This document shows, one piece after another, positions 28,229-35,288 of a DNA stretch of 64,000 nucleotides. The stretch is taken from the NCBI RefSeq assembly GCF_030690345.1, contig NZ_JAUYGV010000006.1, forward strand, positions 62,001-126,000, written 5' to 3'. Source of the stretch: Rheinheimera sp. (GTDB taxonomy: Bacteria > Pseudomonadota > Gammaproteobacteria > Enterobacterales > Alteromonadaceae). The translations under genes and the position numbers were made by a program. The notes beneath the pieces are model-generated. The model had not been told where the DNA came from, ran no database searches, and saw only the letters and a program-made list of their open reading frames with translations. The first letter of the stretch is position 1. Each line of letters begins with the position of its first letter.

Positions 28229-28477
28229 ATGCCTTACGCCAGGTTATCTGAGCTGCCAGATCCAGTTAAAGACAATTTGCCCAAGCACGCGCAGGAGATT
28301 TATCAGGCGGCGTTTAACAACGCCCGGGATGAATACGATGAGCCGGCTAAGCGGCGTGGCGAACAGAGCCGGGAAGAAGTTGCGCATAAAGTGGCTTGGG
28401 CGGCGGTGAAAAACAGTTACCACAAGACGATATCGGGTAACTGGGTAAGAGCGAGCGACAGGAGTACGTCAACGTGA
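28229..28477 (+). CDS. ChaB-domain small protein
   Basis: An 82-residue cytoplasmic protein matching the ChaB family: LPDPVKDNLPKHAQEIYQAA (about 8-27), FNNARDEYD, and a C-terminal HKVAWAAVKNSYHK. E. coli ChaB is named as a regulator of the ChaA cation antiporter but its biochemistry is obscure. No chaA is present here. The ribosome site CGGAG precedes the ATG. Its stop overlaps the GTG start of the next gene (GTGA), so it is translationally coupled to a five-gene operon with membrane and glycosylation functions, suggesting a role different from antiporter control. Confidence 0.82.
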   Translation: MPYARLSELPDPVKDNLPKHAQEIYQAAFNNARDEYDEPAKRRGEQSREEVAHKVAWAAVKNSYHKTISGNWVRASDRSTST

Positions 28478-29250
28478 TACCCGGCACAGTACAGGAAACT
28501 AAAACAGCAGCTAGTGACGCAAAACCGCAGCGCAAAAGATCGGCACTGCTGGGGATGCTGGTCAGCGTGGTTTTTGTTACCGCTGCGCTGGCGATACTGG
28601 TGTATTTTGATGTGCACGAATACGTGTTGCAGTTACTGGAATGGTTTAAACAACAGGGGCCATGGGCACCGGTGCTGTTTATGCTGATTATGGCATTGGT
28701 TGTTATTTTACTGCTGCCGGGGGCGTTATTCACTATCGGCGCTGGCTTCGTCTTCGGCGTACTGCCTGGTTCGGTCTATGTGCTACTGGGCACCACTTTG
28801 GGCGCTGTAGTGGCGTTTTTGCTTGCGCGTTATTGTTTTGGGCAGCGGGCCAAAACATTTGTTATGGCCAGAGCAAAGCTACGGCTGGTAAGTGATGAGC
28901 TGACGCCAAATGGCTGGAAGATTGTGTTGTTAACCCGGCTGATCCCGTTTTTCCCCGGCAAAATTTCTAACTATTTTTTTGGTTTAACCCAGTTCCCGCT
29001 GCGGGGGTATATTGCCGGTTCCTTGCTGGGGTTTATCCCCTTTACCGTGCATAACGTCTATCTTGGTTCTTTGATTGCCGATATCTCCGGTTTTGATCTG
29101 ACCTCGCGCCAGCGATCCGTCTGGGAGTGGGGCTTATACGCCGGCGGCCTGGTCGCTGCTGTGGCAATCATTGTCTATCTTAATCATCTGGCCAGCCGGG
29201 CATTGGCCCGGTACACCGACCAAAGCATGGATAAGGAGCCTGAGCAATGA
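28474..29250 (+). CDS. TVP38/TMEM64 (VTT/DedA-type) membrane protein
   Basis: A 258-residue inner membrane protein with an N-terminal helix (about 27-47) and a VTT domain. The diagnostic stretch reads VLLTRLIPFFPGKISNYFFG (about 153-172) then GSLLGFIPFTVHNVYLGSL, with the conserved arginine, prolines and glycines of the family. An earlier conserved GALFTIGAGFVFGVLPGSVY re-entrant segment is also visible. Members of the DedA/VTT superfamily move or flip lipids and undecaprenyl phosphate. The start is GTG at 28474, overlapping the ChaB stop, and the stop overlaps the next ATG. The context suggests lipid handling together with the downstream glycosyltransferase. Confidence 0.87.
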   Translation: MIPGTVQETKTAASDAKPQRKRSALLGMLVSVVFVTAALAILVYFDVHEYVLQLLEWFKQQGPWAPVLFMLIMALVVILLLPGALFTIGAGFVFGVLPGSVYVLLGTTLGAVVAFLLARYCFGQRAKTFVMARAKLRLVSDELTPNGWKIVLLTRLIPFFPGKISNYFFGLTQFPLRGYIAGSLLGFIPFTVHNVYLGSLIADISGFDLTSRQRSVWEWGLYAGGLVAAVAIIVYLNHLASRALARYTDQSMDKEPEQ

Positions 29251-32783: not shown

Positions 32784-32831
32784 TAATGCTTGCCTGCTTA
32801 CGTGGTCAATACGTAGCAAAACGGGAGGCTT

Positions 32832-35288
32832 ATGCTTAGTCGGATCGAAGTCTGGTTGCGCTGGCTCCGGCGCAGCCTGAGCCGCAGCCATTGGCTGGCA
32901 AGGCTGTTGCAACTGCCTGTATCCCAAGGATCGGCGGTAAGGCCGGGGCTTATTATGCTGCAAATTGATGGCTTGTCGCAGCCCGAGTTGCAGCGGGCTT
33001 TAGCACGCGGTGAAATGCCGTTTTTACAACGTCTGTTAAAGCGTGAGCATCACACCCTGCATGCACATTACTCAGGTTTACCGGCGACAACGCCGGCGGT
33101 ACAGGCAGAGCTGTTTTATGGCATTAAAACTGCGGTGCCGGCTTTCTCATTTTGTGACCACTGTTCTGGCCGTATCGTCAGGATGTTAGAGCCTGATGCT
33201 GCCGCTCAGGTAGAACAGCGGCTGACAAAAATGAGTGATGAGGCCTTGCTACAGGACGGCAGCGCCTATGCGAATATTTATACCGGTGGTGCGGCTGAGC
33301 CGCATTTTTGTGCGTCAGCACTGGGCTGGGGGCCGGCTCTGCGTAGCGCCAATCCGCTGGTGCTGGCGGTGCTTATTATTACTAATTTATACAGTGTGTT
33401 ACGTATTATCGGTCTGTTTTTTTTCGAACTTGGCCTCGCGCTGAGCGACTTTGTCCGCGGCTTAGTCAAAGGACAAGATTTTCTCAGTGAGCTGAAATTT
33501 GTGCCTACCCGGGTTGCCATTTCTATAGTGTTGCGCGAGCTTTGTGTTATCGGCGGTAAAATTGACCTCAGCCGCGGTATGCCAATCGTGCATATCAACT
33601 TTCTTGGCTACGATGAGCAGTCACACCGGCGCGGCCCGTCGTCGCGGTTTGCGCACTGGACATTAAAAGGCATTGACGACAGCATCGCGCGGCTGTGGCG
33701 CGCGGCTAACCGTTCAGAGTGGCGCCGATACGAAGTGTGGATCTATTCCGACCATGGCCAGGCGAAAGTACGTCCTTATCATCAATTACAGGGCTATCCG
33801 TTACAGCAGGCGGTAGAGCAAAGCTTTGATAAGTTAAAAGCGCGCCCGGCCGCTGTCCGGCAGCAGATGGCTGACAGCATCCAAACCCAACGTGTCAGAT
33901 TACTGGGTGGTAACAAGGTTCAGCGCTTGTTTGCGGTGCGTGATAACAATGCCAACGCAGCTAAAGATGGCGCAGTCAGCAATAGCGCCACCAAAGACAA
34001 CGCAGCTGATATAGCGGCCATTCAGGTTGCAGCGCTTGGGCCGGTGGGGCATATTTACGCCCCGGCGCCACTGACTGCACAAGACAGTCGTTTTATTGCC
34101 ACTGCTTTGGCGACAGAGCACAAAGTGCCGGTGGTGCTGGTACTTGAAGCTGTGGATCGGCTGCGGGCGACAACGGACGAAGGTGATTTTTATCTGCCGC
34201 AAGATGCTGCGCGATTATTCGGCGCTGAGCATCCGTTTCTGGATAGTCTAAGTGAAGACTTACTGAGGTTATGCCAACATGCTGATGCCGGTGATTTTGT
34301 CGTTATGGGCTGGCGCAACGGGGTAACCGCGCAGTCTTTTGCTGATGAGAATGGCGCCCACGCCGGCGCCACACCAGAGGAAACCAACGGCTTTGCCTTA
34401 CTGCCGGCTGATGCCCCCTTATCCTCTGCCGTTAACAGCTATTTACGACCGGGCGATTTGTATAACGCCGCCCTGCATTATCTCGGGCGTAAGCAGCAAC
34501 CGCCTGCGGAGCGCCGTTCTGCTGTGCGGAGCGAACAAACTGACATCTTACGGGTGATGACTTACAACGTACACAGTTGCATTGGCCTGGATGGTAAAGT
34601 GGATGTAGAGCGTATCGCCAGAGTGATTGCGCTGGCCAATCCGGATGTCGTTGCACTGCAAGAGCTGGATGTCGGGCGTGATCGCAGTTTTGGTTTGGAT
34701 CAGGCTCAGCTGATAGCGCGCTATCTGGAAATGGAATTTCATTTCCATCCGGCGATGCATATGGAAGAGGAGCGCTACGGCGACGCCATTTTAACCCACC
34801 TGCCGTTACGGTTAGTCAAAGCCGGCCCTTTGCCGGGGCTGGCGGACAAACCGGAGCTGGAGCCGCGCGGCGCGATCTGGGTAGCGGTAGAGTGGCATGG
34901 TCAGGAGGTGCAAATTATTAATACCCATCTGGGTTTAAATAGTCGTGAGCGACTGGCACAAATTAATTGCTTGTTGGGACAAGACTGGTTACGCCACCCG
35001 GATTGTAACGGACCAGTGATACTTTGTGGTGATTTAAATGCGCAGCCAACCTCAGTGTTATGCCGCCGTCTTGGGGCTCAATTACAGGATGTGCAAACGG
35101 CAGTGGCGCAACACCGGCCCGCAGGCACCTTTCCCAGCCGGTTTGCCGCGCTGCGTATTGATCATATTTTTGTCAGCCAGGCTGTGGCGGTAACCGCCAT
35201 TGATATACCCGGCTCACAGTTGGCAAAGGTGGCATCAGATCATTTACCCTTGCTGGCGCAGCTGCATATTCAGCGCCGCGGGAGCTAA
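32832..35288 (+). CDS. Fusion of alkaline-phosphatase-fold phosphodiesterase and EEP (endonuclease/exonuclease/phosphatase) domain
   Basis: An 818-residue two-domain protein. Residues 38-550 have the alkaline phosphatase/nucleotide pyrophosphatase fold: [11 protein letters not shown] (metal Asp46), [16 protein letters not shown] (nucleophile region near Thr86-87), [13 protein letters not shown] (Asp261, His265), IYSDHGQAK (Asp307, His308) and [11 protein letters not shown] (His510). A hydrophobic insert at 174-204 could anchor it in the membrane. Residues 572-815 are an EEP domain: [21 protein letters not shown] (Glu611), [17 protein letters not shown] and [10 protein letters not shown]. Both active sites look complete. 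EEP domains of this sort act on phospholipid or sphingolipid head groups as well as DNA. With the GT4 and VTT genes this suggests head-group removal from lipids. Its stop overlaps the convergent hemB stop by four bases. Confidence 0.82.

Follow-up and report, generated by a model that had tools for sequence, protein, structure and literature searches.

The window analysed here is a stretch of 64,000 nucleotides from Rheinheimera sp. (contig NZ_JAUYGV010000006.1, positions 62,001 to 126,000), and it carries a block of five genes on the forward strand. ChaB (28229..28477) is followed by a membrane protein of the DedA superfamily with a VTT domain (28474..29250), a six-hairpin glycosidase-like protein of 749 amino acids, here called GH (29247..31496), a GT4 glycosyltransferase (31500..32783, PF13439/PF00534) and AP-EEP (32832..35288), a fusion of a Phosphodiest domain of the nucleotide pyrophosphatase/phosphodiesterase (NPP) type with an EEP domain. 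The coordinates of the open reading frames (ORFs) bear out the initial annotation, which had described five rightward genes joined by a GTGA overlap (ChaB/VTT), an ATGA overlap (VTT/GH), a 3-base gap (GH/GT4) and a 48-base gap (GT4/AP-EEP). Pfam matches above the cut-off named four of the five proteins, by the domains ChaB, VTT, GT4, Phosphodiest and Exo_endo_phos.

The four core proteins

Conservation was followed in alignments that combined each window protein with relatives from the loci described in the next section: 42 sequences for GH (the window and 41 of 80 loci), 30 for GT4 (29 of 51 loci), 27 for AP-EEP (26 of 36 fusion loci) and 27 for VTT (26 of 71 VTT loci).

The VTT domain (PF09335) was recognized with 82.4 bits against a cut-off of 33.9. 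A profile of the family scored the E. coli proteins YdjX and YdjZ at 92.2 and 57.3 bits, and YghB and YqaA at -3.2 and -1.8. No acidic residue occurred at the first re-entrant tip in the 27 aligned members, which were also aligned with the E. coli proteins. According to Todor and co-workers (PMC10127716), the COG0398 branch comprises putative phospholipid scramblases and stands closer to human TMEM41B and VMP1 than the other bacterial branches do, with lipid substrates that are putative as well, while COG0586 comprises undecaprenyl phosphate (UndP) flippases with acidic residues at the first re-entrant tip. Since both the profile scores and the non-acidic tip agree with that description, VTT was assigned to COG0398 (TVP38 type), as a putative lipid scramblase, and not to the UndP-flippase branch. 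A COG0586 flippase was considered as a candidate and rejected, as VTT has no acidic residues at that tip.

GH gave no match in Pfam or NCBIfam, and its glycosidase label comes from the predicted fold. The AF2 model (pLDDT 78.1, pTM 0.83, poor at residues 32-80) matched cellobionic acid phosphorylase, glucodextranase, glucoamylase, maltose phosphorylase, 2-O-alpha-glucosylglycerol phosphorylase and other disaccharide phosphorylases in Foldseek, with TM-scores up to 0.59 among the matches listed; the 50 best were considered for this model and for that of AP-EEP. The first four of these enzymes belong to GH94, GH15 and GH65. The six-hairpin fold of the model was matched by 1ug9 (1.7e-13) and 1lf6 (9.9e-13), and other six-hairpin families scored alike. 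The sole hint at the sequence level was an alignment with dextran dextrinase (E 0.24), in which WFRD/WVRD and WDD/WED line up. PF00723 was above its cut-off in none of the 42 proteins; seven matched at E up to 10, the best at 0.019, and the window protein gave no match. D477, E627, R364 and D365 were invariant in 42/42. In the same weak alignment Asp (D477) falls on the position of the presumed GH15 general acid, and E627 is a candidate for the base; we assume here that GH15 enzymes use a Glu as general acid and a Glu as general base, and that E627 would be the latter. A hydrophobic, signal-peptide-like start was not seen in the 42 GH or the 27 AP-EEP proteins, so GH is probably cytosolic.

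Among the NCBIfam models, NF049988 (alpha-monoglucosyldiacylglycerol synthase) fitted GT4 best, at 138.4 bits; its cut-off is 400. Each of the 30 aligned sequences matched it at E 1e-10, and E288/E296 were invariant in all of them.

Both halves of AP-EEP were above their Pfam cut-offs (PF01663, 42.6 bits vs 23; PF03372, 79 bits vs 24.5). In the AP half D46, T87, D261, H265, D307, H308 and H510 were invariant in 27/27; it aligned with nucleotide pyrophosphatase/phosphodiesterases in a PDB search (E 0.004), and D261/H265/D307/H308 were seen in the alignment with 7mw8. The EEP domain, at residues of about 570-815, kept N579, E611, N697, H699, D734, N736, D803 and H804 in 27/27. We presume that these residues act as metal ligands and nucleophile in AP and as catalytic residues in EEP. 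A hydrophobic segment lies inside the AP domain (residues 172-208 in the window protein), and all 27 aligned proteins have such a stretch; the 19 residues of highest hydrophobicity begin at 177-194 in 25 of them and at 229 in the other two. The AF2 model was weaker than that of GH (pLDDT 70.1, pTM 0.61), and its EEP half matched EEP enzymes in Foldseek. PF23226, the EEP model of PGAP2IP/CWH43, reached 25.7 bits in the window protein, under its cut-off of 27, and 27.9 in a stand-alone EEP from the locus L107. Lipid-acting enzymes are known in both folds, such as ENPP6/7 of the AP type and sphingomyelinase and inositol phosphatase of the EEP type.

Recurrence, co-evolution and genomic setting of the block

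A scan of genome contigs gave 370 relatives of GH, and all locus counts below refer to the best 80 of these 370. This set leans to near relatives, and 14 of the 80 are congeners already contained in the genus sample. Labels of metagenome bins among the 80 may be wrong; one reads Halobacteria. The presence of ChaB, SodC, VTT and GT4 was scored on frames of at least 80 codons, and tblastn without that limit returned the same counts. Less biased is the class sample of 369 gammaproteobacterial genomes; 31 congeners and 299 genomes of the phylum, both samples including the window genome (4.35 Mb), were searched as well.

The order VTT-GH-GT4-AP-EEP was found in 33 of the 80 loci, from many genera, and 13 of these also have ChaB. 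VTT-GH alone made up 29 loci, mostly from Marinobacter. The remainder was divided among VTT-GH-GT4 (5), GH-GT4 (5), GH-GT4-AP-EEP (3), EEP-VTT-GH-GT4-AP (3) and two layouts cut at contig ends (GH-GT4-AP and VTT-GH-GT4-AP); several of the shorter layouts are likewise close to the end of a contig. GH adjoins a VTT or a GT4 gene in 80/80 loci, and VTT is its commonest partner (71/80). Host records include Marinobacter, Thiobacillus, Thiohalophilus, Sedimenticola, Bowmanella and bins labelled Desulfuromonadales and Desulfobulbaceae. In one locus (L059, 7833-8571) the VTT gene is split over two frames and GH, GT4 and AP-EEP are open. In another (L181, 10699-11385) a lysophospholipid-acyltransferase-like ORF, named by eye, lies directly upstream of GH-GT4, in the place lacking VTT.

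Of the class-sample genomes, 16 had GH and 11 had full-length AP-EEP; nine had the two together (hypergeometric P 2e-12, and 4e-11 when the window genome is left out). In all nine the two genes are 1.3-1.4 kb apart, which is space for one GT4 gene. GT4 stood directly beside GH in each of the ten class-sample loci read (the window and nine further loci), of 16 GH loci in total. A relative from the same family, G048, has GH-GT4 followed by a 213-residue ORF that is VTT-like by eye and unmatched by the VTT profile, and has no AP-EEP. The phylum sample held GH in 5/299 genomes, including the window's own.

Pairwise distances of the five parts (the AP and EEP halves counted apart) correlated at 0.88-0.94 over the 33 loci with all parts, and at 0.80-0.93 over the 19 of these outside the Rheinheimera lineage. 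These figures leave out three loci with a split EEP; the EEP correlations among them were 0.90-0.93 and 0.84-0.90, respectively. When the split loci were included, pairs without EEP stayed at 0.88-0.93 against a permutation maximum of 0.36, and EEP pairs fell to 0.58-0.66, or 0.40-0.48 outside the Rheinheimera lineage. The fall is due to the three loci (3/80) carrying a different EEP: a stand-alone EEP gene comes first and AP alone comes last, and this EEP is just 32-38% identical to the three fused EEPs compared. Two distinct EEP enzymes have therefore become linked to the unit.

The conserved unit is thus composed of four genes, VTT, GH, GT4 and AP-EEP, and it is near certain that they work together. 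The initial annotation had treated ChaB as a fifth member and would have taken rare co-occurrence of the five genes elsewhere as a sign against its proposal. The four do recur as an inherited unit; it is ChaB for which co-occurrence elsewhere is rare, as it was found in 13/80 loci, exclusively in the Rheinheimera/Arsukibacterium lineage. ChaB is a lineage-specific neighbour, probably outside the core unit; it matched PF06150 at 77.4 bits and the NCBIfam ChaB model at 99 bits, under the cut-off of 120.

The distribution of the block is patchy, and we infer that it has probably been transferred horizontally. Plasmid carriage received no support from megablast of plasmids, which gave no match, and tblastn of plasmids returned just two distant GH relatives (24-25% identity) in Methylosinus/Methylocystis, annotated as discoidin-domain proteins. 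The one such region that was opened (L199, 8191-11064) had no lipid genes by annotation and a GH15 gene one gene away. A phage origin was considered and rejected: PHROGs gave no match for GH and one weak match of unknown function for AP-EEP. Clustering of neighbours over the 80 loci, with some of the clusters annotated, gave recurring clusters that either stayed within a single lineage or varied in their distance and strand.

Among the 31 congeners GH was present in 15, and full-length AP-EEP in the same 15. The block sits between gppA and hemB in all 15; in the 16 block-free congeners these two genes are directly adjacent in 11 and have other genes between them in five. In the wider set gppA and hemB flank the block in 14/80 loci, only in Rheinheimera/Arsukibacterium. 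The interval (27394-35285 in the window) is variable in the genus and may be empty or hold the block, YD-repeat/Rhs-like proteins, a pyridoxal-enzyme-like gene or sodC, all named by eye. On the minus strand of the window, sodC (27508..28095) precedes the block and hemB (35285-36289) follows it, the stop of hemB overlapping that of AP-EEP by 4 bases. Both sodC and chaB accompany the block in 14/15 congeneric loci, the remaining locus having neither, and no sodC turned up at the loci from other lineages. In 10/15 congeneric loci an ORF of an alpha/beta-hydrolase family, assigned by a Pfam run on one of the ten members and truncated to 196 amino acids in one, lies between ChaB and VTT, so the ChaB-VTT overlap of the window is a local state. 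The inverted repeat reported in front of the operon is present before chaB (28186-28192 / 28201-28207, 7-nt arms and 8-nt loop), and we attach no special significance to it, as 10% of shuffled copies of the 133-base gap hold at least one equally good.

Apparent exchange of one half of the block

The 29 loci with VTT-GH alone have no cognate GT4 or AP-EEP beside GH; in one of them (L116) the contig stops about 200 bases past GH. Ten of these genomes were searched further. Full AP-EEP was not found in the ten, which gave two weak EEP-only matches, and their best GT4 homologue had 31-35% identity. In the six genomes read (L187-L192, from Marinobacter, Marinimicrobium and Saccharospirillum) this homologue forms the C-terminal part of a protein with an extra N-terminal domain, for which a weak Metallophos match just under the cut-off was obtained in two of the six. 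The gene adjoining the fusion encodes LPG_synthase_TM, the flippase domain of MprF type, in five of the six loci, and VTT in the sixth.

The N-terminal part of this replacement fusion was present in 29/29 VTT-GH-only genomes and in 0/32 tested genomes bearing the cognate GT4 (of 51), giving a Fisher value of 5e-18 that is uncorrected for relatedness and includes some GT4-bearing genomes that are incomplete bins. The class background was 6/369, none with GH, so the notion that the fusion is merely common was discarded. Outside Marinobacter the VTT-GH-only hosts were Marinimicrobium, Saccharospirillum, an Oleiphilaceae bin and a bin labelled Halomonas. In Marinobacter similis (L133) the VTT gene and the GT4 fusion each appear split in two frames, by joint decay or sequencing error. 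The replacement fusion together with the LPG_synthase_TM gene would make a putative second lipid-glycosylation module, and the exchange of the GT4-phosphoesterase half for a GT4 fusion beside an MprF-type gene suggests that the block deals with lipids.

A putative glycolipid module and its relation to known systems

We propose, with a probability of roughly one half, that VTT, GH, GT4 and AP-EEP form a module that makes, flips and removes a membrane glycolipid at the cytosolic leaflet. Anchored at the inner leaflet through the hydrophobic helices inside it, AP-EEP would strip a membrane lipid of head groups that contain phosphate. The exposed lipid would receive a sugar, probably an alpha-glucosyl unit, from GT4, and the COG0398-type VTT would scramble the resulting glycolipid between the two sides of the inner membrane. 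In the cytosol, the GH15-like protein would take the sugar off again, and the balance of synthesis and removal would set the level of the lipid. That the block is involved with lipids at all is likely, as judged from its context, and a lipid as the substrate can be assumed with fair confidence. The direction and order of the steps, the identity of the sugar and the scrambling are weak elements, and the exact sequence of four steps is doubtful. The initial annotation had likewise proposed a glycolipid or lipid-remodelling pathway; this idea gained support from the COG0398-type VTT and from the GT4-fusion replacement beside the MprF-type gene, and NF049988 is the best model for GT4, though far below its cut-off.

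Several observations weigh against the proposed module. VTT was missing in 9/80 loci (five with sequence on that side and four near a contig end), and adjacent VTT in five of the ten class-sample loci read, so it is not obligatory, and AP-EEP was missing in seven of these ten. GT4-AP-EEP without GH occurred in two genomes of one other genus, in one of which the contig ends inside GT4. Host relatedness contributes to the distance correlations of the parts, and when the split loci were kept and the Rheinheimera lineage was set aside, permutation was not clearly exceeded by three of the four EEP pairs. The VTT-GH-only genomes are mostly Marinobacter, and lineage therefore explains much of the 29/29 count. 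The replacement fusion may not equal AP-EEP in function, since its phosphoesterase-like half is without the metal-binding motifs that we took to be canonical. GT4 is far under every curated cut-off. The AP half was unconfirmed by Foldseek among the matches listed, and its label rests on sequence. Both folds, AP (NPP) and EEP, also act on nucleotides and soluble phosphates. Finally, a role in phosphate limitation, as suggested in the initial annotation, was not upheld by a scan for Pho boxes in 77 upstream regions, where the best matches averaged 9.19/14 against 8.89 in shuffles and none exceeded 11.

Other functions could be drawn from the same genes. GT4 might glycosylate an undecaprenyl carrier in a polyprenyl-phosphate-linked glycan pathway, in which AP-EEP would split a pyrophosphate or phosphodiester for recycling and VTT would flip UndP. 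UndP flippases do exist in one DedA subfamily (PMC10127716), and glycan-building by many GT4 enzymes, seen as NCBIfam cross-hits, would fit. However, VTT belongs to COG0398 and not COG0586 and is without the acidic residues of UndP flippases, and no glycan-assembly set was seen among the neighbours looked at in the 80 loci, some of whose clusters were annotated; we therefore find this pathway unlikely. A little less probable again is a soluble glycoside metabolism, in which GT4 and a phosphatase would yield an osmotically active glucoside, for instance glucosylglycerol, which GH would recover as phosphorylase or hydrolase. The structural matches of GH to 2-O-alpha-glucosylglycerol phosphorylase and other disaccharide phosphorylases speak for it, and several host genera are marine or salt-tolerant. 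Such a pathway would leave superfluous both the scramblase-type membrane protein that is the commonest partner of GH and the hydrophobic stretch of all 27 aligned AP-EEP proteins, and the unit also occurs in Thiobacillus and Desulfuromonadales records.

AP-superfamily enzymes include phosphoethanolamine transferases, and AP could, instead of cleaving, move a phospho-head group onto a glycolipid, in the manner of eukaryotic PIG-N-type enzymes on glycosylphosphatidylinositol (GPI), with a CWH43/PGAP2IP-like EEP as editor; the block would then be a bacterial counterpart of GPI-lipid processing. The scores that the window EEP and the L107 EEP reach with the model for the C-terminal nuclease-like part of PGAP2IP are in line with this. 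Against it, that match is weak and far surpassed by the generic EEP model, the PDB alignment places AP with nucleotide pyrophosphatase/phosphodiesterases, and PIG-N works at the lumenal face, whereas both domains here have a cytosolic look. We regard head-group transfer as improbable. An anti-phage or conflict island at a hypervariable site would account for the patchiness in the genus (15/31), at a gppA-hemB site that holds other genes in some congeners, and for a weak GT4 match to 'GT4-conflict'. That match, 31.5 bits, is far under what general models of GT4 reach (up to 117 bits), PADLOC models at E 0.001 matched none of the five proteins, and the gppA/hemB flanks are limited to the 14/80 Rheinheimera/Arsukibacterium loci, which makes a conflict island very improbable.

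The preferred reading, a make-flip-remove module for a glycolipid, may in addition be an undescribed Gram-negative pathway that has a VTT scramblase of its own, a new family of cytosolic-leaflet glycosidases, a two-headed AP-EEP lipid phosphodiesterase and, in the Marinobacter branch, exchange of the GT4-phosphoesterase half for an unrelated GT4 fusion; we consider this possible, at somewhat below even chance. In agreement with the initial annotation, which knew of no described pathway with these genes, no description of the VTT-GH-GT4-AP-EEP combination was found in the open-access literature searched, mostly at the level of listings. The block is best filed as a system of glycolipid-remodelling type with one family that is nameless in the libraries searched. 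It reveals a conserved six-hairpin protein family without Pfam match, and a COG0398 VTT that recurs with a lipid-type glycosyltransferase, a glycosidase-like enzyme and phosphodiesterases offers concrete substrates to test. The exchange in Marinobacter and relatives suggests which parts can substitute for each other.

Three of the parts can be set beside their closest known relatives. With the six-hairpin enzymes of GH15, GH65 and GH94, GH shares the predicted fold, a beta-sandwich and a helical core, and it differs by Pfam scores below threshold, the Asp at the presumed acid position and its constant place beside VTT or GT4 genes. GT4 shares best-model status, the GT4 fold and E-x7-E with alpha-monoglucosyldiacylglycerol synthase (NF049988) and differs in score, 138 bits against 400. 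The VTT protein has the domain, the profile similarity and the non-acidic first re-entrant tip of COG0398 DedA proteins (YdjX/YdjZ, TVP38/TMEM64 type). Its frequent linkage to a glycosidase-like gene sets it apart and is unmentioned in the part of PMC10127716 consulted.

For the block as a whole, the closest working analogue is the pathway formed by the phospholipase C PlcP and the glycosyltransferase Agt. PlcP is calcineurin-like, and the Metallophos domain was not found by Pfam in any of the five window proteins. As presented in the part of PMC8528852 drawn on here, in Pseudomonas aeruginosa, Phaeobacter and Sinorhizobium PlcP feeds diacylglycerol to the glycosyltransferase under Pho control. 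Compared with that account, the block has no Pho box that we could find, AP-EEP in the place of PlcP and additional GH and VTT genes. What it would share with PlcP-Agt is a gene for a lipid-directed phosphoesterase beside one for a diacylglycerol glycosyltransferase, and with it the route from phospholipid over diacylglycerol to glycolipid.

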